A DNA stretch of 21,967 nucleotides, taken from a virus. Numbering within the stretch: position 1 is the first letter of the stretch; each line of letters begins with the position of its first letter. A program made the translations under genes and the position numbers. The DNA is taken from the IMG/VR virus record IMGVR_UViG_3300042345_000167, positions 1 through 21,967 of that record. One strand, 5' to 3'. The notes under the pieces were generated by a model, which was not told the origin of the DNA, did not search any database, and saw nothing but the letters and a program-made list of their open reading frames with translations. Shown here in pieces: positions 3,322-21,967 of this stretch.

Positions 3322-3325
<4 letters not shown>
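3077..3325 (-). CDS. Conserved phage protein, 82 aa
   Basis: A small acidic helical protein. The motif DPRPKPSWDEIMFTIEKIKELED at about 34-56 is characteristic of a family found next to tail-fibre genes in many phages, and resembles small tail-fibre assembly or accessory proteins. Residues 43-80 are predicted to be two amphipathic helices. The ATG at 3325 overlaps the stop of the glycine-rich gene as ATGA, and its own TGA overlaps the GTG of the oxygenase, so all three are probably translationally coupled. No catalytic motif is visible. A fibre-assembly role is inferred from position and size only. Confidence 0.75.
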
Positions 3326-5748
<2,423 letters not shown>

Positions 5749-9637: not shown

Positions 9638-9822
9638 TAACGCATACCCCGTTTCATCGGAGTCGGTCGAAAATCAACCGCAGTGCGGATCATGTCCTCG
9701 TTAACGCGCTTTGGCATACGCGGAGCAGGCATACGGGGCTTCTGCATCCGGCTGTTTTGGATCATGTCACCGACTGTTGCGCCGGGAGACACGCCGATTG
9801 GTCCGGGTCGTCTGTTGTACAT
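9637..9822 (-). CDS. Small basic Pro/Met-rich protein, 61 aa
   Basis: The sequence is low-complexity and basic, rich in Pro, Met and Arg, and probably disordered. The segment [10 protein letters not shown] at about 15-24 and the terminal [13 protein letters not shown] correspond to PTVGDLIKNS and IKTWTDYKPTVKG in the 73-aa neighbour, so the two look like diverged tandem copies. It lies 5 bases downstream of that gene. The junction with the 45-aa gene is TAATG. The function is unknown; it may be a short virion-associated or portal-accessory peptide. Confidence 0.7.
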
Positions 9823-9827
9823 AAGGA

Positions 9828-10049
9828 TTACTTCTTTTTTCCTTTAACAGTCGGTTTGTAGTCCGTCCAAGTCTTAATTAAGCCACTAGCATCCGGCATC
9901 GGAGCGGGCTTAACGCTTGGCTTAGGAATATCAGGCATTTTGGCCGCTTGTTGGGAATTTTTAATCAAATCTCCGACGGTTGGCATTTTTGCGGGGCTTG
10001 CGTTTGCCATCCCCTTTTCGAGCAACTTTTTTCTCTGCTCTGCGTTCAT
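9828..10049 (-). CDS. Small basic protein, 73 aa, paralogue of the 61-aa neighbour
   Basis: The N-terminal helix (MNAEQRKKLLEKGM) is followed by PTVGDLIKNS, a Pro/Lys-rich linker (MPDIPKPSVKPAPMPD) and IKTWTDYKPTVKGKKK. The framework TVGD-I-NS ... I-T--D-(K/R)PT is shared with the 61-aa protein. It is Lys-rich and ends in KGKKK. There is no catalytic motif. It lies in the string of small basic genes between the terminase and portal, suggesting a packaging, head or DNA-binding role; this is inference. Confidence 0.7.
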   Translation of the reverse strand: MNAEQRKKLLEKGMANASPAKMPTVGDLIKNSQQAAKMPDIPKPSVKPAPMPDASGLIKTWTDYKPTVKGKKK

Positions 10050-12892: not shown

Positions 12893-12985
12893 GAAGAGCG
12901 TTAATAAAAAAAATTAAAAAGTTTTTGTGAGGGCATCGTAATCGTGACCGGTCAACCCCTGGCCCCACCCCCCCTGTTGTTTTGC

Positions 12986-13002
12986 CACAACACCCTGTTG
13001 TG
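12986..13002. repeat. Perfect 7-bp hairpin, CACAACA/TGTTGTG
   Basis: Arms CACAACA (12986-12992) and TGTTGTG (12996-13002) flank a CCC loop. The arms belong to the same TGTTG/CAACA word family as the repeats downstream, so this is probably part of the same binding array. Confidence 0.65.
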
Positions 13003-13068
13003 CGTGTACCACAACCCTAGACGCGAATGGTTATCGTTATGCGTAAGAGAATCGTTTGCAATACGTTA

Positions 13069-13154
13069 TGTTGCGTGGATGCAACACGTTGCGTTTATGC
13101 AACATGGCTACGTTGTGGCGTAGATGCAACAGTTAGTGTTGCGTGGATGCAACA
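13069..13154. repeat. Four iteron-like repeats (candidate origin)
   Basis: Copies of GCGTNNATGCAACA start at 13073 (GCGTGGATGCAACA), 13091 (GCGTTTATGCAACA), 13118 (GCGTAGATGCAACA) and 13141 (GCGTGGATGCAACA), spaced 18, 27 and 23 bases apart. Three are also dyads: TGTTGC / GCAACA at 13069-13086 and 13137-13154 with a 6-base GTGGAT loop, and GTTGC / GCAAC at 13088-13103. Direct repeats of this length next to an AT-rich stretch are the classic layout of an iteron-type replication origin or a multi-site operator. Which applies here is inference; no initiator gene is adjacent. Confidence 0.7.
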
Positions 13155-13482: not shown

Positions 13483-13511
13483 TTGACAGCATCGACGCAA
13501 TAAGGTGTAAT
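13483..13511 (+). promoter_or_regulatory. Near-consensus sigma-70 promoter for the small-gene cassette
   Basis: A perfect -35 box TTGACA (13483-13488), a 17-base spacer, and a -10 box TGTAAT (13506-13511, one mismatch to TATAAT). Transcription should begin near 13518, giving a leader of about 30 bases before the ATG at 13548. The strength suggests early, host-polymerase-driven expression. It also shows that the in-frame GTG at 13467 cannot be the start of the first gene. Confidence 0.85.
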
Positions 13512-13547
13512 GCAATCGTTGACAACATAAACACGGAGCAACTAGCC

Positions 13548-13784
13548 ATGCAAACCACAGACTTCACCGGAACATACGATTACGAAAAAGAAGAGGCTTT
13601 ATGTGAGGCTAACTACCTCATTGAGCAGGTAGAGGATGGAAGTCTCACCATCGACCAGTTGCCGCTAAAAATCGAGCGTGCTCGCATTCATTGGCGAAAG
13701 TCTCTGAACAATCCTGAGTCATTCGCTGATTTTGACGCTCACTTCACCGCCACTCTTAACGCTTACATGGAGTCTGCAAAATGA
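13548..13784 (+). CDS. Hypothetical acidic helical protein, 78 aa
   Basis: The first gene behind the rightward promoter. The ATG at 13548 has GGAG 9 bases upstream. The product is acidic and mostly helical (YDYEKEEALCEANYLIEQVE at 10-29, then LPLKIERARIHWRKSL), with one Cys and no signal peptide. An upstream in-frame GTG is excluded because the promoter lies inside that extension. The stop TGA overlaps the next ATG (ATGA). I do not recognise a family. Its place at the head of an early cassette suggests a host-interaction role; this is inference. Confidence 0.75.
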   Translation: MQTTDFTGTYDYEKEEALCEANYLIEQVEDGSLTIDQLPLKIERARIHWRKSLNNPESFADFDAHFTATLNAYMESAK

Positions 13785-13921
13785 CCCACTTTCTAAACTC
13801 TGTCGTGTTCGTAGGCTTCACTCTTGCCTGTGTTGCCATTGTCATAGATTCCTTTACACTCGGAGCCGGTGGCATTACCGCCGCCGGTATCGCTGCTTTG
13901 ATCGACTACGTCCGCAACTAA
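13781..13921 (+). CDS. Small membrane protein, 46 aa
   Basis: Begins at an ATG overlapping the previous stop. Residues 4-23 (FLNSVVFVGFTLACVAIVID) form a convincing single transmembrane helix, followed by a Gly/Ala-rich hydrophobic segment (LGAGGITAAGIAALID at 27-42) and a short basic end. It could be an inner-membrane phage microprotein, for example a superinfection-exclusion or lysis-timing peptide, but no family is recognised. Support is the coupled start and the clear hydrophobic pattern. Confidence 0.65.
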   Translation: MTHFLNSVVFVGFTLACVAIVIDSFTLGAGGITAAGIAALIDYVRN

Positions 13922-13944
13922 TAACCAACTAGGAGAATCACAAA

Positions 13945-14133
13945 ATGAAAACCGAATTCTTGTTTCGTTTCGCGCCGTCGCCTGTTGCCATGGCTACTTA
14001 CGTAGAACGTCGCAGACTCGCGCAGATGCTCCGCGCTTATCGTGCCGACCGTCGCAAGTATCGCGTCTCGCGTATCGCTGACGGGTATAGCGTCACCTGT
14101 GGCTTTGCGAAAGCCATCATCTCTCGCATCTAA
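13945..14133 (+). CDS. Basic hypothetical protein, 62 aa
   Basis: An excellent ribosome site (AGGAG at 13931-13935) lies 9 bases before the ATG. The protein is strongly basic and Arg-rich. Residues 16-40 (ATYVERRRLAQMLRAYRADR and on) form a helix with many Arg, followed by KYRVSRIADGYSVTCGFAKAI. There are no membrane segments. It could bind nucleic acid or an acidic host protein; no family recognised. Confidence 0.7.
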   Translation: MKTEFLFRFAPSPVAMATYVERRRLAQMLRAYRADRRKYRVSRIADGYSVTCGFAKAIISRI

Positions 14134-14154
14134 TTACAAACGGAGAACTTAGCA

Positions 14155-14631
14155 ATGCAAAACAATCTATTGACGCTCTCGTGGAGCGTATCCCGTGGTG
14201 TTAACTCTTACGGATATAACATCTGCCGCCTTGACGATAGATACACCGGCAAGCGCTTCCGCACCTGTGGTGGTGGCTATGACATGGTCGGCAGTGTGTT
14301 AGGCCAGTGGCTCACCGAACGCTATCAAGACCGACTGCAAGCCATTGGTGACCGTGCTAGTTCTTACTACAGCAAGGCGGGAGGCTATAAGACTCACCGC
14401 CTAGCGGGGTCGTCCCTGCCTTTCGGAGATATTGACCGCGCCTACCATTACGGAATGACCCGAAACGATGACACCGGGCGTGTCAGTCTTGACGGCGCTT
14501 GCGGTGTGGAGACGATGCTAGGCATAGCCACGGCTATCGGCTTGCAGATTACCCGCAATAGCGACAAACGAGGCCGCACCATCGGTTTTTTTGTTACCGA
14601 TACCACCCAACCGTCGCAGGTAGCCGCATGA
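14155..14631 (+). CDS. Conserved phage protein, 158 aa
   Basis: The largest gene of the cassette, with GGAG 9 bases before the ATG. The N-terminal phrase SWSVSRGVNSYGYNICRLDD at 9-28, then GKRFRTCGGGYDMVGSVLGQWL, is one I associate with uncharacterised phage proteins that accompany small regulatory genes. The middle (LPFGDIDRAYHYGMTRNDD) is aromatic; the C-terminal helix (GVETMLGIATAIGLQITR) is amphipathic. It is probably cytosolic with an alpha/beta fold. No active-site signature is clear. The stop overlaps the next start as ATGA. Confidence 0.75.
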   Translation: MQNNLLTLSWSVSRGVNSYGYNICRLDDRYTGKRFRTCGGGYDMVGSVLGQWLTERYQDRLQAIGDRASSYYSKAGGYKTHRLAGSSLPFGDIDRAYHYGMTRNDDTGRVSLDGACGVETMLGIATAIGLQITRNSDKRGRTIGFFVTDTTQPSQVAA

Positions 14632-14813
14632 AAACCTTCGACGTGGTGCTCTTTACCTGCATCCAAGAGGTCGTAACCGTTGAGGCACGCGACGAGGACG
14701 ACGCTGCCGAGATCGCGCTTCAAATCGTAAAGGCGGGCTATACCGTCCACAGCGAATTGGATTGGGACGTTGAGGAAGTCAACATAGGAGACCCCGCAGA
14801 TGTCGCAGAATGA
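14628..14813 (+). CDS. DpnD/PcfM-like small acidic protein, 61 aa
   Basis: The layout is a strand FDVVLFTCIQEVVTVEA, an acidic helix start DEDDAAEIALQIV, and a final acidic strand, DWDVEEVNI. This resembles the DpnD/PcfM family of short proteins (strand - VEAxxExEAxxx - acidic strand), which occur in mobile elements and are of unknown function. The ATG overlaps the previous stop. The match is by pattern only, so the family call is moderate; the gene itself is well supported by coupling. Confidence 0.6.
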   Translation: MKTFDVVLFTCIQEVVTVEARDEDDAAEIALQIVKAGYTVHSELDWDVEEVNIGDPADVAE

Positions 14814-15009
14814 CCAGATTAGAGCCGCCCTAATTCTAGGGCGGTCACTCACCCCGCTCGATGCTCTGCAAGACTATGGATGCTTCAGGCTTGCTGCCCG
14901 TATCGCAGACCTACGCCGTGAGGGCATGGACATTGAGTGCATTAACGAAACGAAGAACGGCAAGCGATACGCTCGCTATCAACTGCGGAGGCCGTATGCG
15001 TCTGCATAA
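14800..15009 (+). CDS. Winged-helix HTH protein (HTH_39-like), 69 aa
   Basis: Residues 6-66 (QIRAALILGRSLTPLDALQD, then FRLAARIADLRREGMDIECI, then a K/R-Y-A-x-Y-x-L strand) match the small winged-helix domain seen in many phage proteins: an S/T-x-x-(D/E)-A-L helix, a R-L-(A/S)-x-R-I-x-(D/E)-L-R recognition helix, and a wing ending in A-R-Y-x-L. It probably binds DNA and may regulate this cassette. AGGAG lies 9 bases before the ATG. The gene overlaps the previous one by 14 bases. Confidence 0.75.
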   Translation: MSQNDQIRAALILGRSLTPLDALQDYGCFRLAARIADLRREGMDIECINETKNGKRYARYQLRRPYASA

Positions 15010-15118
15010 ACTCTGGCAACTAGGGTACTGGTACGCTCGCGGCCACGATTGGCGACACGTACCGCCCCCAAACTGGCGATCTAGCCGCGGTATCAACCCC
15101 CTTTCCGTTTACTGGTGA
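14996..15118 (+). CDS. Small Trp/Arg-rich protein, 40 aa
   Basis: The ATG at 14996 lies inside the end of the HTH gene and has a good ribosome site, GGAGG, about 5 bases upstream. The peptide reads MRLHKLWQLGYWYARGHDWR, then HVPPPNWRSSRGINPLSVYW, with six Trp in 40 residues. The longer frame from 14861 runs through the HTH gene and has no ribosome site. The dense aromatic and basic content suggests an interaction peptide; function unknown. Confidence 0.55.
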   Translation: MRLHKLWQLGYWYARGHDWRHVPPPNWRSSRGINPLSVYW

Positions 15119-15121
15119 TCT

Positions 15122-15331
15122 ATGGAAAAACCACACTTTCCAACCCTGCAAGAACTGGAGGCCATGTTTGCCGACGACGACACACCCTTGACCTACCGCG
15201 CACCCCCTGACCCTGCGCGGCTCCAAACGGCTGTGCGGGCGTTTATGAGCGCATGGGACGACGATTTGACGGTTAGGGAACTCGCGCCTTTCGTGGAGGA
15301 AGTGCGTCGAGCGTTGGAGGGGCGCCCGTGA
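15122..15331 (+). CDS. Hypothetical acidic helical protein, 69 aa
   Basis: Begins 3 bases after the previous stop at an ATG with a weak ribosome site. The sequence PTLQELEAMFADDD at 7-20 and ARLQTAVRAFMSAWDDDLTV near 32-51, then LAPFVEEVRRALEG, suggests three helices with acidic surfaces. The stop shares bases with a GTG start downstream (GTGA). No family recognised. Confidence 0.65.
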   Translation: MEKPHFPTLQELEAMFADDDTPLTYRAPPDPARLQTAVRAFMSAWDDDLTVRELAPFVEEVRRALEGRP

Positions 15332-15462
15332 CTGAGTTTCACGAACGATGGGGCTTGCAGCCTACTTATCCACGGCTGACCCGTTGCACCCGTCGTTATT
15401 GGGTTACGTATCTCGGGCGCTGTATTGATACCGCGAGGGCTACGCTATGGCGGGATTCTTAA
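15328..15462 (+). CDS. Small Arg-rich protein, 44 aa
   Basis: A GTG start overlaps the previous TGA (GTGA), the same junction type as two minus-strand gene pairs in this window. The product is MTEFHERWGLQPTYPRLTRC, then TRRYWVTYLGRCIDTARATL, ending WRDS; it is Arg-, Trp- and Tyr-rich with two Cys. The phrase RRYWVTYLGRCIDTARAT looks like a small DNA-binding wing or AP2-like strand pair, but it is too short to assign. The next candidate peptide starts inside its last codons. Confidence 0.5.
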   Translation: MTEFHERWGLQPTYPRLTRCTRRYWVTYLGRCIDTARATLWRDS

Positions 15463-15509
15463 TTGCCGTCGCTCTGACGGTACTTGCGTCGATATTGTTC
15501 GACGATTGA
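15447..15509 (+). CDS. Candidate 20-aa transmembrane microprotein
   Basis: An ATG at 15447, preceded by GAGGG at 7 bases, opens a 20-codon frame, MAGFLIAVALTVLASILFDD. This is one hydrophobic helix with an acidic end. It starts inside the 44-aa gene and ends 4 bases before the terminator stem, so it fits exactly between them. The small size makes it uncertain, but its hydrophobic pattern and ribosome site are better than chance would usually give. Confidence 0.4.
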   Translation: MAGFLIAVALTVLASILFDD

Positions 15510-15512
15510 ACG

Positions 15513-15536
15513 AGGGGGCGCAAGCCCCCTTTATTT
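15513..15536 (+). terminator. Strong intrinsic terminator of the small-gene cassette
   Basis: A 7-bp perfect stem (AGGGGGC at 15513-15519, GCCCCCT at 15524-15530) with a GNRA-type GCAA loop is followed by TTTATTT. It ends rightward transcription. Its tail overlaps the stop codon of the convergent helicase gene. In the minus direction the same stem has no U-run. Confidence 0.9.
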
Positions 15537-18197: not shown

Positions 18198-18742
18198 CAC
18201 TCCTCCGATGAATACCATTGTGTTTGACGGTGTAAAAACGTCGGCCATTCAATTTTATTTGTGAACGAACGATCCTGAATCAACACATAATTAGTTGGCT
18301 GAGCGGTATATCGCCCATTAGCCAATTCCATAAAGTAAAACTCTTTCGCCTGAGTTGGTGTGGCGCTATACGCATCACCAATAGGGATTAACGTAAACAA
18401 ATAACGCCCAACAAAATCTTGATCATCACACCGAGCCATACCGTTTAACCCAACGAGATATGGATACTCAATTACGCTGAATTCGTAACCATAAGCGTTC
18501 CATCTCTGCGCTAGTGTCGCATCCCAAGCATCCTCGGTTTTACGCCATGCAATTTGATGCAGCGGTACGTTTCGGTAAACAGCGCCACACTCCAGTAGAA
18601 CGTGGCAACCAAATGCTCTTCCGGGATAGCAAGTCATTCCAAACCAAACCGCTTGCATCCAGTCATGCTGCCCAATTGCGTTCGGCTCAATCCAAACATA
18701 CTGATGCGTCTGTAATGCACCCGAATGCGCGTAAATTGCCAT
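18197..18742 (-). CDS. Hypothetical aromatic-rich protein, 181 aa
   Basis: A soluble protein unusually rich in Trp, Tyr, Phe and Cys, with likely strands throughout: HQYVWIEPNAIGQHDWMQAVWFG near 13-35, CHVLLECGAVYRNVPLHQIAW, YEFSVIEYPYLVGL, GRYLFTLIPIGDAYS. The C-terminal DRSFTNKIEWPTFLHRQTQWYS may be a capping helix. No catalytic signature was recognised. The coding sequence looks more AT-rich than the flanking exonuclease and ERF genes, suggesting later acquisition. It sits inside the recombination operon, two bases downstream of the coiled-coil gene, and its stop overlaps the exonuclease ATG. Confidence 0.75.
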   Translation of the reverse strand: MAIYAHSGALQTHQYVWIEPNAIGQHDWMQAVWFGMTCYPGRAFGCHVLLECGAVYRNVPLHQIAWRKTEDAWDATLAQRWNAYGYEFSVIEYPYLVGLNGMARCDDQDFVGRYLFTLIPIGDAYSATPTQAKEFYFMELANGRYTAQPTNYVLIQDRSFTNKIEWPTFLHRQTQWYSSEE

Positions 18743-18744
18743 TG

Positions 18745-18969
18745 CTAATCTTCTCCTGTCTCCATGAGACGTTTAAGTTCTCGACACTCGCGCTCAAGAC
18801 GCTCCATCTTTTCTGTAACTACAACAAGTCGGCTAGTTGCCTCGTCCCGTTGCTCCAATACGCGCCTCAACTTTTCGGCCAACGCTTGCGATAGTTCTGA
18901 CGAGTCAGGGATCGCCATGGTGTGACCGATAATTTCGTAGTCGGTCATTAGCGCGTAGTAAGGGGTCAT
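18745..18969 (-). CDS. Coiled-coil small protein, 74 aa
   Basis: The N-terminus (MTPYYALMTDYEIIGHTMAI) is followed from residue 24 by an uninterrupted acidic/basic helix (SELSQALAEKLRRVLEQRDE, then VVVTEKMERLERECRELKRL) with leucine heptads, a clear coiled coil of about 45 residues. It probably oligomerises. Its ATG overlaps the previous stop (ATGA). The family is common in phage early operons, but no function is known to me. Confidence 0.7.
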   Translation of the reverse strand: MTPYYALMTDYEIIGHTMAIPDSSELSQALAEKLRRVLEQRDEATSRLVVVTEKMERLERECRELKRLMETGED

Positions 18970-20287: not shown

Positions 20288-20446
20288 ATGACACCGAAAC
20301 AACTACTGAAGATTTATGGTTCCCAGAGCGAGATCGCTCGGGCGTTGGGCGTAACCCGGCAGGCTGTGCTGCGCTGGTTCAAGGAAGACAAGATTCCTGC
20401 GTTGCGCCTGTACCAAATTCAATGCGTGCTGAAGGTCAATGAATAA
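20288..20446 (+). CDS. Cro-like transcriptional repressor, 52 aa
   Basis: A minimal helix-turn-helix protein. LLKIYGSQSEIARALGVTRQ at 6-25, then AVLRWFKEDKIPALRLYQIQ, has the same plan as P22 Cro (xxxxFGTQxAVAKALGIxxxAVSQW...IPxxxAYRLE): Ser13-Gln14 opens the first helix, Gly21-Val22 makes the turn, and Thr23-Trp30 is the recognition helix. It ends after residue 52, shorter than P22 Cro at about 61. The ATG at 20288 is set by the promoter; an upstream frame extension back to 20132 crosses the divergent promoter region and is not coding. It probably binds the dyad at 20251-20268. Confidence 0.85.
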   Translation: MTPKQLLKIYGSQSEIARALGVTRQAVLRWFKEDKIPALRLYQIQCVLKVNE

Positions 20447-20774
20447 TCCAGTTACGAATAGCACCGACATATCGTGGGCGTCACAGGCCAACGTGCGGTA
20501 TTGGGAAAGCGTCAAGCACGCGCCGTTTGGCAAACTGCGGTTAGCCGATGCGTACCTTGCTCGGATCGGCGTAGGCGACTGGCAGCAGCGTGCAGAGCGC
20601 ACCTCGTGGCTTAAGAACTACGTGGGTGACATCCTGCGGTCGCTGGACGATGCCACTGAGGCATATGGCGACCCGCACGTTCGGGGAATGGTGCGGGAAC
20701 TGTGGGGCGAGCCGGGTGTGACCAAGTTGAAGGCTAGGTGTAAACCGCACGAACCAACGACGAACAGGGGATGA
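20439..20774 (+). CDS. Hypothetical protein, 111 aa
   Basis: The ATG at 20439 overlaps the end of the cro-like gene by 8 bases. Helical segments with many Trp/Arg (WASQANVRYWESVKHAPFGK at 13-32, then RLADAYLARIGVGDWQQRAE, TSWLKNYVGDILRSLDDATE, RGMVRELWG) suggest a small globular helical protein, with a basic tail (KARCKPHEPTTNRG). It sits where lambdoid phages place cII or replication genes, but no similarity to these is seen. Function unknown. Confidence 0.7.
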   Translation: MNNPVTNSTDISWASQANVRYWESVKHAPFGKLRLADAYLARIGVGDWQQRAERTSWLKNYVGDILRSLDDATEAYGDPHVRGMVRELWGEPGVTKLKARCKPHEPTTNRG

Positions 20775-20778
20775 AGCA

Positions 20779-20967
20779 ATGGCATGGGGCAAAATCGGCG
20801 AAGAAAATCCAAACGCTACGATGACGGTTGAGATTGTGAAAAAAATCAGAAAGGCTCAAGCATTGCGTAATAAATTAACTGACAAATCATTAGCCCGCAA
20901 ATACGGAATTAGCCCAAAAGCGGTTAAGGATGTAATGGCTCGTAAACGATGGAAGCACGTTCCATGA
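20779..20967 (+). CDS. Stand-alone HTH protein (homing-endonuclease type), 62 aa
   Basis: GEENPNATMTVEIVKKIRKA at 7-26 followed by LTDKSLARKYGISPKAVKDVMARKRWKHV resembles the DNA-binding tail found beside HNH homing endonucleases (GExNxxAxLTxxxVxxIR ... LAxxxGVSxxxIxxIxxGxxWxHV). The HNH catalytic part is absent here. It may be a remnant or a regulator. AGGGGA lies 7 bases before the ATG, and the stop overlaps the next start (ATGA), so the two genes are coupled. The DNA is more AT-rich than upstream genes. Confidence 0.75.
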   Translation: MAWGKIGEENPNATMTVEIVKKIRKAQALRNKLTDKSLARKYGISPKAVKDVMARKRWKHVP

Positions 20968-21704
20968 TTCATTATCACGGAACACCCATGACCCCAATCG
21001 GCGACATGATTAAGTCGTTTGCGGCGCGACATGCAATGGTAAGTTACGAGCATCCGCAGCAAATTGAAATTGCAGCAGAGATTTGCCAGTCCGTTGTTTT
21101 AGACAACGGGGCATTCAGCGCGTGGCGTCAAAACAAGGCATATGATTTTTCCGGGTATGCAAATTGGGCCGAAAAGTGGATTCGACATCCCGCAGTTGAT
21201 TGGTGCGTGATACCGGACAAGATTGATGGCACTGAAAGCGACAATGACGCTTTGCTGCGAGATTGGGGATTACCGAAACATTCATCTGTTCCGGTATGGC
21301 ACATGCACGAGTCGTTGGATCGACTTGAGCGCCTTTTAGAATATCCTCGGATTGCCTTGGGTTCCTCTGGGGCTTATGCCAGCGTTGGAAACGATTTGTG
21401 GTGGAAACGTATTGCAGATGCAATGCGGGTGATTTGCGACGAACAAGGACATCCGAGGGTTAAATTGCACGGCTTGCGAATGTTGGACCCCGGTGTTTTT
21501 AGCAAGTTACCATTAGCCAGTGCAGATAGTTGTTATGTCTCACGCAACGTCGGCATGGATACGGCGTGGAAAGGGCCATATGCTATGACATCGCGCTACG
21601 TTCGAGCCGTATGTTTAATGGAGCGAATTGAACGTCACGCAAGTGCGGCGTACTGGTCGGAATCCGCAATAGCCGCTTATCAGAATTTTGAGTTATTTGG
21701 TTAA
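20964..21704 (+). CDS. TGT/DpdA-like TIM-barrel protein, 246 aa
   Basis: The ATG at 20964 is chosen for its ATGA overlap with the HTH gene; a frame start at 20949 lies inside that gene. Phrases in order: MIHYHGTPMTPIGDMI, VVLDNGAFSAW (Asp47), DWCVIPDKIDG (Asp85), VPVWHMHESLDRL (His113, His115), IALGSSGAYA, VKLHGLRMLDP, and LPLASADS (Asp188). This order (a D-x-G-x-F-S strand, an IPD strand, a GSSG phosphate loop, an LHGLR strand and a terminal SADS) fits the tRNA-guanine transglycosylase superfamily as seen in phage DpdA-type proteins that insert 7-deazaguanines into DNA. The zinc-binding CxCxxC of true TGTs is not seen. No preQ0 synthesis gene lies nearby, so the substrate is open. AT-rich composition suggests recent transfer. 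Confidence 0.65.
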   Translation: MIHYHGTPMTPIGDMIKSFAARHAMVSYEHPQQIEIAAEICQSVVLDNGAFSAWRQNKAYDFSGYANWAEKWIRHPAVDWCVIPDKIDGTESDNDALLRDWGLPKHSSVPVWHMHESLDRLERLLEYPRIALGSSGAYASVGNDLWWKRIADAMRVICDEQGHPRVKLHGLRMLDPGVFSKLPLASADSCYVSRNVGMDTAWKGPYAMTSRYVRAVCLMERIERHASAAYWSESAIAAYQNFELFG

Positions 21705-21706
21705 AG

Positions 21707-21967
21707 ATGCGCTACGCCAAACGTCGAGACAACAACCACACCGACATCGTAGAAGCCTTACGTAAGGCCAACTTCGAGGTCATCGACTACGCCTCGGCAG
21801 GGCACGACATCCCTGACTTGTTGGCCGTCAAGCCAATGCACGACGGTATGGCGTGGATTTGCTGGATAGAGGTCAAGGCCAAGGGTGGGCGGCTGTCAGA
21901 GGGACAGAAACGCTTTCAGGGGCTGTTCCAGCCTAGGGGCGAGTGGTACGAAGCCCGTGACCCGGAC
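21707..21967 (+). CDS. VRR-NUC / resolvase-like nuclease (3' end cut off)
   Basis: The first 87 codons are visible; the frame is open to the window edge. HTDIVEALRKANFEVIDYAS at 11-30, then GHDIPDLLAV with Asp37, ICWIEVKAKGGRLSEGQKRF with Glu55 and Lys57, and a C-terminal Q-x-x-F, give the D...ExK core of a VRR-NUC/Holliday-junction-resolvase type PD-(D/E)xK nuclease. It could process branched replication intermediates before packaging, fitting the exonuclease/ERF module. Starts 2 bases after the previous stop with only a weak ribosome site. Confidence 0.8.
   Translation, partial: MRYAKRRDNNHTDIVEALRKANFEVIDYASAGHDIPDLLAVKPMHDGMAWICWIEVKAKGGRLSEGQKRFQGLFQPRGEWYEARDPD

Follow-up and report, generated by a model that had tools for sequence, protein, structure and literature searches.

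Ten tiny phage genes in one operon, one half fixed and the other exchangeable, with shared sequences at the gene edges

Layout and coding status of the locus

The window analysed here is the whole 21,967-base stretch of the virus record IMGVR_UViG_3300042345_000167. As listed in Table 1, ten plus-strand frames, mostly overlapping or tightly packed, form one operon at 13548-15509 (hereafter the cassette), which is flanked by two minus-strand operons. The left-hand operon contains the late genes, among them terminase and portal, and the right-hand one the genes of the helicase, the YqaJ exonuclease and the Erf annealing protein. The start of the seventh gene, G, was set at the ATG at 14996, and the cassette counts given for I and J come from mechanical gene calling.

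Are all these short frames genes? Relatives in other contigs were found for all ten, and silent changes far outnumber amino-acid ones. Measured against the relatives, pN/pS is 0.41 for B, 0.21 for E, 0.18 for F, 0.27 for G, 0.27 for H, 0.13 for I and 0.07 for J, and it is 0.07 for A, 0.15 for C and 0.06 for D, the last three each on only two or three sequences. Purifying selection acts on all ten genes. Since they are kept in the relatives with mostly silent change, they are real, including the 20-residue J; an earlier note had described ten tiny plus-strand genes standing as their own unit between minus-strand operons, and such a unit is present with every frame coding. One might still suppose that the frames are largely spurious and their turnover an assembly artefact, as the genes are very short and the relatives are metagenome contigs. 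However, pN/pS is well below 1 in all ten genes, the same genes recur in separate contigs, and homologues of D occur in sequenced isolates as well, and I consider this explanation extremely improbable.

Table 1. Features of the cassette and its upstream region; fractions are the number of the 25 compared cassettes that carry the gene.
Feature	Position	Strand	Description
Four palindromes TGTTGCGTNNATGCAACA	13069-13154		Gap separating divergent operons
Putative sigma70-type promoter	13483-13511	+	TTGACA-17-TGTAAT; footprint against relative L002, pattern in relatives
Slot-1 leader CGGAGCAACTAGCC	13534-13547	+	With ribosome site; common to unrelated families in the slot
Gene A	13548-13784	+	78 aa, acidic, exchangeable slot 1; 3/25
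Gene B	13781-13921	+	46 aa, predicted membrane peptide (hydropathy), kept; 23/25
Gene C	13945-14133	+	62 aa, basic, Arg-rich, exchangeable slot 2; 3/25
Slot-2 leader CGGAGAACTTAGCA	14141-14154	+	Directly before gene D
Gene D	14155-14631	+	158 aa, apparently phage-only family, exchangeable slot 2; 2/25
Coupled D/E junction GGTAGCCGC-ATGA	14619-14631	+	Consensus GGGAGGCCGC-ATGA among unrelated families
Gene E	14628-14813	+	61 aa, acidic; 19/25
Gene F	14800-15009	+	69 aa, winged-helix DNA-binding protein (HTH_39); 25/25
Gene G	14996-15118	+	40 aa, basic; 25/25
Gene H	15122-15331	+	69 aa, acidic; 25/25
Gene I	15328-15462	+	44 aa, GTG start, Arg-rich; 23/25
Gene J	15447-15509	+	20 aa, predicted membrane peptide; 22/25
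Hairpin terminator	15512-15536	+	8-bp stem, GCAA loop, TTTATTT; z -4.2

Promoter, terminator and upstream palindromes

The hexamers TTGACA (13483-13488) and TGTAAT (13506-13511) are separated by a spacer of 17 nt, and the second ends 36 nt before gene A. In the comparison with the relative L002, both hexamers are fixed and the spacer has diverged. The pattern TT(G/T)ACA-17-T(A/G)TAA(T/A) is found in 19 of the 25 cassettes, some of which read TTTACA/TATAAA, and was absent from shuffled sequence; the first gene usually starts 34-45 bases downstream of it. A promoter scan passed over TGTAAT because it demands an A at the second base of the -10 hexamer. Thus conserved in place, the pair provides good evidence for a putative working sigma70-type promoter before gene A. 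The strength that the earlier note ascribed to this promoter is unsupported because the -11 A is missing, despite agreement at 11 of the 12 consensus bases. The terminator predicted at the other end is a GC hairpin on the 3′ side of gene J. It shares bases with the stop codon of the helicase gene, which converges on the cassette, and nearly all relatives retain the hairpin with other loops.

The TGTTGCGTNNATGCAACA palindromes have no other copies in the window, and their number was reached in 0 of 100 shuffles. They adjoin A+T-rich sequence and are conserved in relatives down to a helicase identity of 62%. Half-sites resembling them were seen at 12978-13015. The array may consist of candidate operators or replication-origin repeats. 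As for operators of the Cro-like gene, no copy of TGTTGCGTNNATGCAACA was found near 20291. A search for RNA families across the window returned none.

Products of the cassette genes

Among the ten products, only the winged-helix protein F has a named domain, Pfam HTH_39 (E 9e-14; 51.5 bits against a curated cut-off of 21.3). B and J reach 15-residue Kyte-Doolittle maxima of 2.96 and 2.81, respectively, and are predicted to be membrane peptides, and C (11 Arg in 62 residues), G and I are Arg-rich. The earlier descriptions of a winged-helix protein, of one or two membrane peptides and of Arg-rich peptides were therefore borne out. The label of a DpnD-like protein, attached to E, fell away: it is without support in Pfam, PHROG or NCBIfam. 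As a DpnD/PcfM candidate, E has no Pfam match to the family at E<=1, and its modelled beta-beta-alpha-beta fold (pLDDT 75, moderate confidence) is too general to decide. No homologue of E was found in GenBank phages. In Pfam, PHROG, NCBIfam and PADLOC models, no cassette gene matched a named anti-defence family, and no PADLOC model gave a hit.

Comparison among relatives

Relatives were collected by scanning IMG/VR with TerL and the helicase, and 25 distinct cassettes were compared, namely the window and 24 IMG/VR relatives whose helicases are at least 87% identical. Gene families were clustered with composition correction. Megablast found no near-identical GenBank phage.

The comparison revealed a locus of two parts: almost all cassettes retain B and the distal core E-J, while the proximal 1.2 kb is hypervariable. 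The aligned fraction is 0.04-0.41 at 13.5-14.75 kb and about 1.00 at 10.5-12.9 and 15.0-17.2 kb. The variable sites are two slots, one before B and one between B and E, which about 57 other families (by mechanical gene calls) fill across the relatives; 27 of these occur in two or more cassettes. Pairs whose helicase DNA is 93-95% identical often have less than one third of their non-core cassette genes in common. Because of these aligned fractions and the low sharing between close pairs, the cassette is judged half fixed and half exchangeable, a build invisible from one sequence alone. The neighbouring virion and replication genes stay colinear while the proximal gene content turns over fast, and thus an invariant locus tied to the virion genes, the outcome named beforehand as counting against a takeover role, is rejected. 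The turnover between related phages that the earlier note had proposed to look for was found in the proximal half; B and E-J are almost invariant, so the cassette is not simply a variable takeover island.

Gene E is absent from the six cassettes that carry a GP88 protein. In these six (L117, L122, L123, L126, L128 and L133), the GP88 protein is 264 aa long and B has diverged, which suggests that the cassettes with GP88 and those with E are two alternative haplotypes. The cassettes of more distant relatives encode GP88, DUF7249, DUF7227 or a DnaN-domain protein in the equivalent place; in the L040 and L062/L099 families, cassette proteins of 200-229 aa have a central DnaN (beta clamp) domain. 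MW202483, whose TerL is 70% identical, has a C5 DNA methyltransferase in its equivalent cassette, plausibly an anti-restriction gene. In eight relatives with helicases 61-66% identical (L040, L145-L149, L153 and L155), a homologue of F lies not in the cassette but just upstream of the helicase gene, on the helicase strand.

The position of F in these distant relatives favours a different explanation, in which the locus is mainly a module for regulation or replication support: the flanking operons or an origin would be under the control of F, the palindromes and the fixed core, and the variable genes would be near-neutral passengers. The conserved palindromes, the presence of F, G and H in every cassette compared and the replication-type genes in some cassettes, such as that of the DnaN-domain protein, point the same way. 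Against it, the variable genes A, C and D are not decaying, with pN/pS of 0.06-0.15 on two or three sequences each, and D is retained across unrelated phages. I regard such a module as unlikely.

Elsewhere in the same relatives, further strongly variable blocks were seen at 18251-18750 (aligned fraction 0.04), 20751-21750 (0.11-0.27) and 9751-10000 (0.23). The second block contains a protein (20949-21704) that matches PHROG 887, queuine tRNA-ribosyltransferase-like, at E 1e-60, and I presume that it may be a DpdA-like DNA-modification gene. An 808-aa glycine-rich protein with internal repeats is encoded at 3322-5748, where long antisense frames stem from base composition. No tyrosine integrase was found in ten relative records of 20.9-38.5 kb; a temperate life is still possible.

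Shared sequences at the gene edges

The joints, which appear ready for exchange, are the most interesting part of the cassette. When the same gene follows different upstream neighbours, the start codon itself has an identity of 0.78, the preceding 10 bases one of 0.52 and the sequence beyond 20 bases one of about 0.3. When it precedes different downstream neighbours, the stop codon marks a drop in identity from 0.82 to 0.43. Since identity falls at both codons, replacement is gene-precise, and by the same drop in identity the mosaic joints coincide with shared leader or junction sequence.

Two types of junction were found. In the first, unrelated gene families have a leader in common, CGGAGnAACTAGCC-ATG before B and CGGAGAAnCtAnCA-ATG after B. 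In the second, GGGAGGCCGC-ATGA, the last codons of the previous gene (often EAA-stop) are the ribosome site of the next gene. Gene D of the window illustrates both; CGGAGAACTTAGCA precedes its start, and at its end, in GGTAGCCGCATGA, gene E begins. Before the start, sequences of different families have an average identity of 0.39, whereas the value for 23 other window genes is 0.28 (p<=0.002). Because unrelated genes in the same slot share a leader or an ATGA overlap, an incoming gene would be translated at once.

Some of the sequence that the leaders share is no more than a good ribosome site. It may then be asked whether the leaders merely reflect selection for one strong type of ribosome site, the linkers playing no part in exchange and the mosaic arising by illegitimate or long-homology recombination, with selection purging joints inside genes. 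The core of every leader is indeed a Shine-Dalgarno sequence, and in phages, mosaic joints often fall at gene edges where no boundary sequence is present (PMC3029335). On the other hand, the conservation reaches past the ribosome site and includes the C-terminal EAA-stop codons of unrelated genes, and the other genes of the genome, at the identity of 0.28 given above, lack a shared sequence. This explanation is a serious one to which I give somewhat less than an even chance. The linkers could be kept by selection on translation, and at 10-20 bases they may not be long enough to direct recombination by themselves. Some joints could also be assembly chimeras because the relatives are metagenome contigs.

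Gene D and its family

At E<=0.01, 46 GenBank phage records contain a homologue of D; a few host labels among them look doubtful. The motifs TCGGGYDM and DGxxG are invariant across 21 aligned members. No plasmid relatives were found, and a pattern-based search, which divergent relatives could escape, confirmed no cellular relatives in species genomes. On these searches, the D family appears to be widespread and phage-only among the phage, plasmid and cellular collections covered.

By sequence, D has no solved relatives of note. Its model (pLDDT 87) has no match in the PDB at E<=0.001, and its matches among viral models are only to uncharacterised phage proteins. A resemblance to the retroviral integrase core was dismissed as noise, as it consists of short partial overlaps at E 0.2.

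In unrelated phages of Klebsiella, Salmonella, Aeromonas, Pseudomonas, Acinetobacter and Vibrio, the neighbours of D are again small genes of unknown function, arranged in runs. It is at or near the front of the run in Seifer, Season12 and Vibrio phage 1.049.O, the last of which has a membrane peptide gene immediately upstream of D. The unrelated phage L003 has D together with two other members of the cassette gene pool.

Discussion

The explanation that I favour, as a probable but by no means secure one, is that the cassette is an accessory operon for host takeover or counter-defence, built for the exchange of single genes and their immediate expression. In a podovirus-like phage, the operon would be read separately by the host sigma70 RNA polymerase, probably early, and its tiny genes would be linked in a chain by translational coupling. 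The fixed set (B and E-J, including the winged-helix F) would be a standing part of the phage programme, and exchangeable genes would occupy slots 1 and 2, on either side of B. Exchange would use the short linkers together with flanking homology and would probably depend on two proteins of the phage itself, the annealing protein Erf and the exonuclease YqaJ. In lambda, an Erf-family recombinase and its exonuclease recombine diverged sequence efficiently (PMC3945230), and since such a pair does so, Erf/YqaJ are a plausible agent here. The targets of the exchanged genes would be functions or defences of the host, and the turnover of these genes would be driven by the diversity of hosts.

The anatomy, turnover and gene company of the cassette fit an accessory cassette directed against host functions or defences. 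Of the host-takeover or anti-defence build proposed in the earlier note, the proximal turnover, the sigma70-like promoter and the gene company stand; counting against it, there is no match to a named anti-defence family, and about half of the cassette, namely B and the distal part, does not turn over. A fuller version is that of a plug-in operon with standard junctions, in which an annealing recombinase swaps tiny counter-host genes and D is a phage-only effector with a new fold; this I put forward tentatively, as possible but doubtful.

How does this arrangement compare with known systems? The early regions of lytic phages devoted to takeover or anti-defence, such as that of T7, consist of small, mostly unknown genes behind a promoter for the host polymerase. 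The cassette resembles the T7 early region in its small, mostly unknown genes and its predicted host-polymerase promoter, but half of its genes are invariant, and an early or anti-host role would be an inference here. The Chi-like Klebsiella phage Seifer and Salmonella phage Season12 likewise have a plus-strand run of small genes with membrane peptides and a D homologue near the front, and the run faces a minus-strand operon as the cassette does. However, their backbone is unrelated, and the remaining genes are not homologous to those of the cassette. In the literature on hypervariable early regions, nothing was found directly on the arrangement of the cassette.

The start-associated sequences (SAS) of cluster K mycobacteriophages are a conserved ribosome-site sequence just 5′ of many small-gene families and rare elsewhere (PMC3203893). 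The cassette is similar in having a conserved ribosome-site sequence before the starts of several gene families. The cluster K sequence GGGATAGGAGCCC was not found here, the consensus of the cassette being CGGAGnAnCtAnCA or GGGAGGCCGC-ATGA. Judged from these sequences, the cassette leaders work like the cluster K SAS but are not members of them. Unlike the SAS, they lack extended inverted repeats and follow slots, there is a second type in which the start overlaps the previous stop, and genes are replaced one by one at the leaders.

Boundary sequences at the module joints of lambdoid phages (Clark 2001; Susskind and Botstein 1978, both as cited in PMC3029335) were proposed as sites of homologous recombination, and the cassette resembles them in its short conserved sequences at gene joints. 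The cassette differs from the lambdoid boundaries in that one linker recurs from joint to joint along a single operon and serves at the same time as a ribosome site and as C-terminal codons.

With these comparisons, the known variability of small phage genes can be cast as a testable rule of slots, standard junctions and a gene pool recognisable by its linkers. Short accessory genes that escape similarity searches could be located by means of the linkers. The D family is flagged as an unstudied candidate effector across phages of six host genera.
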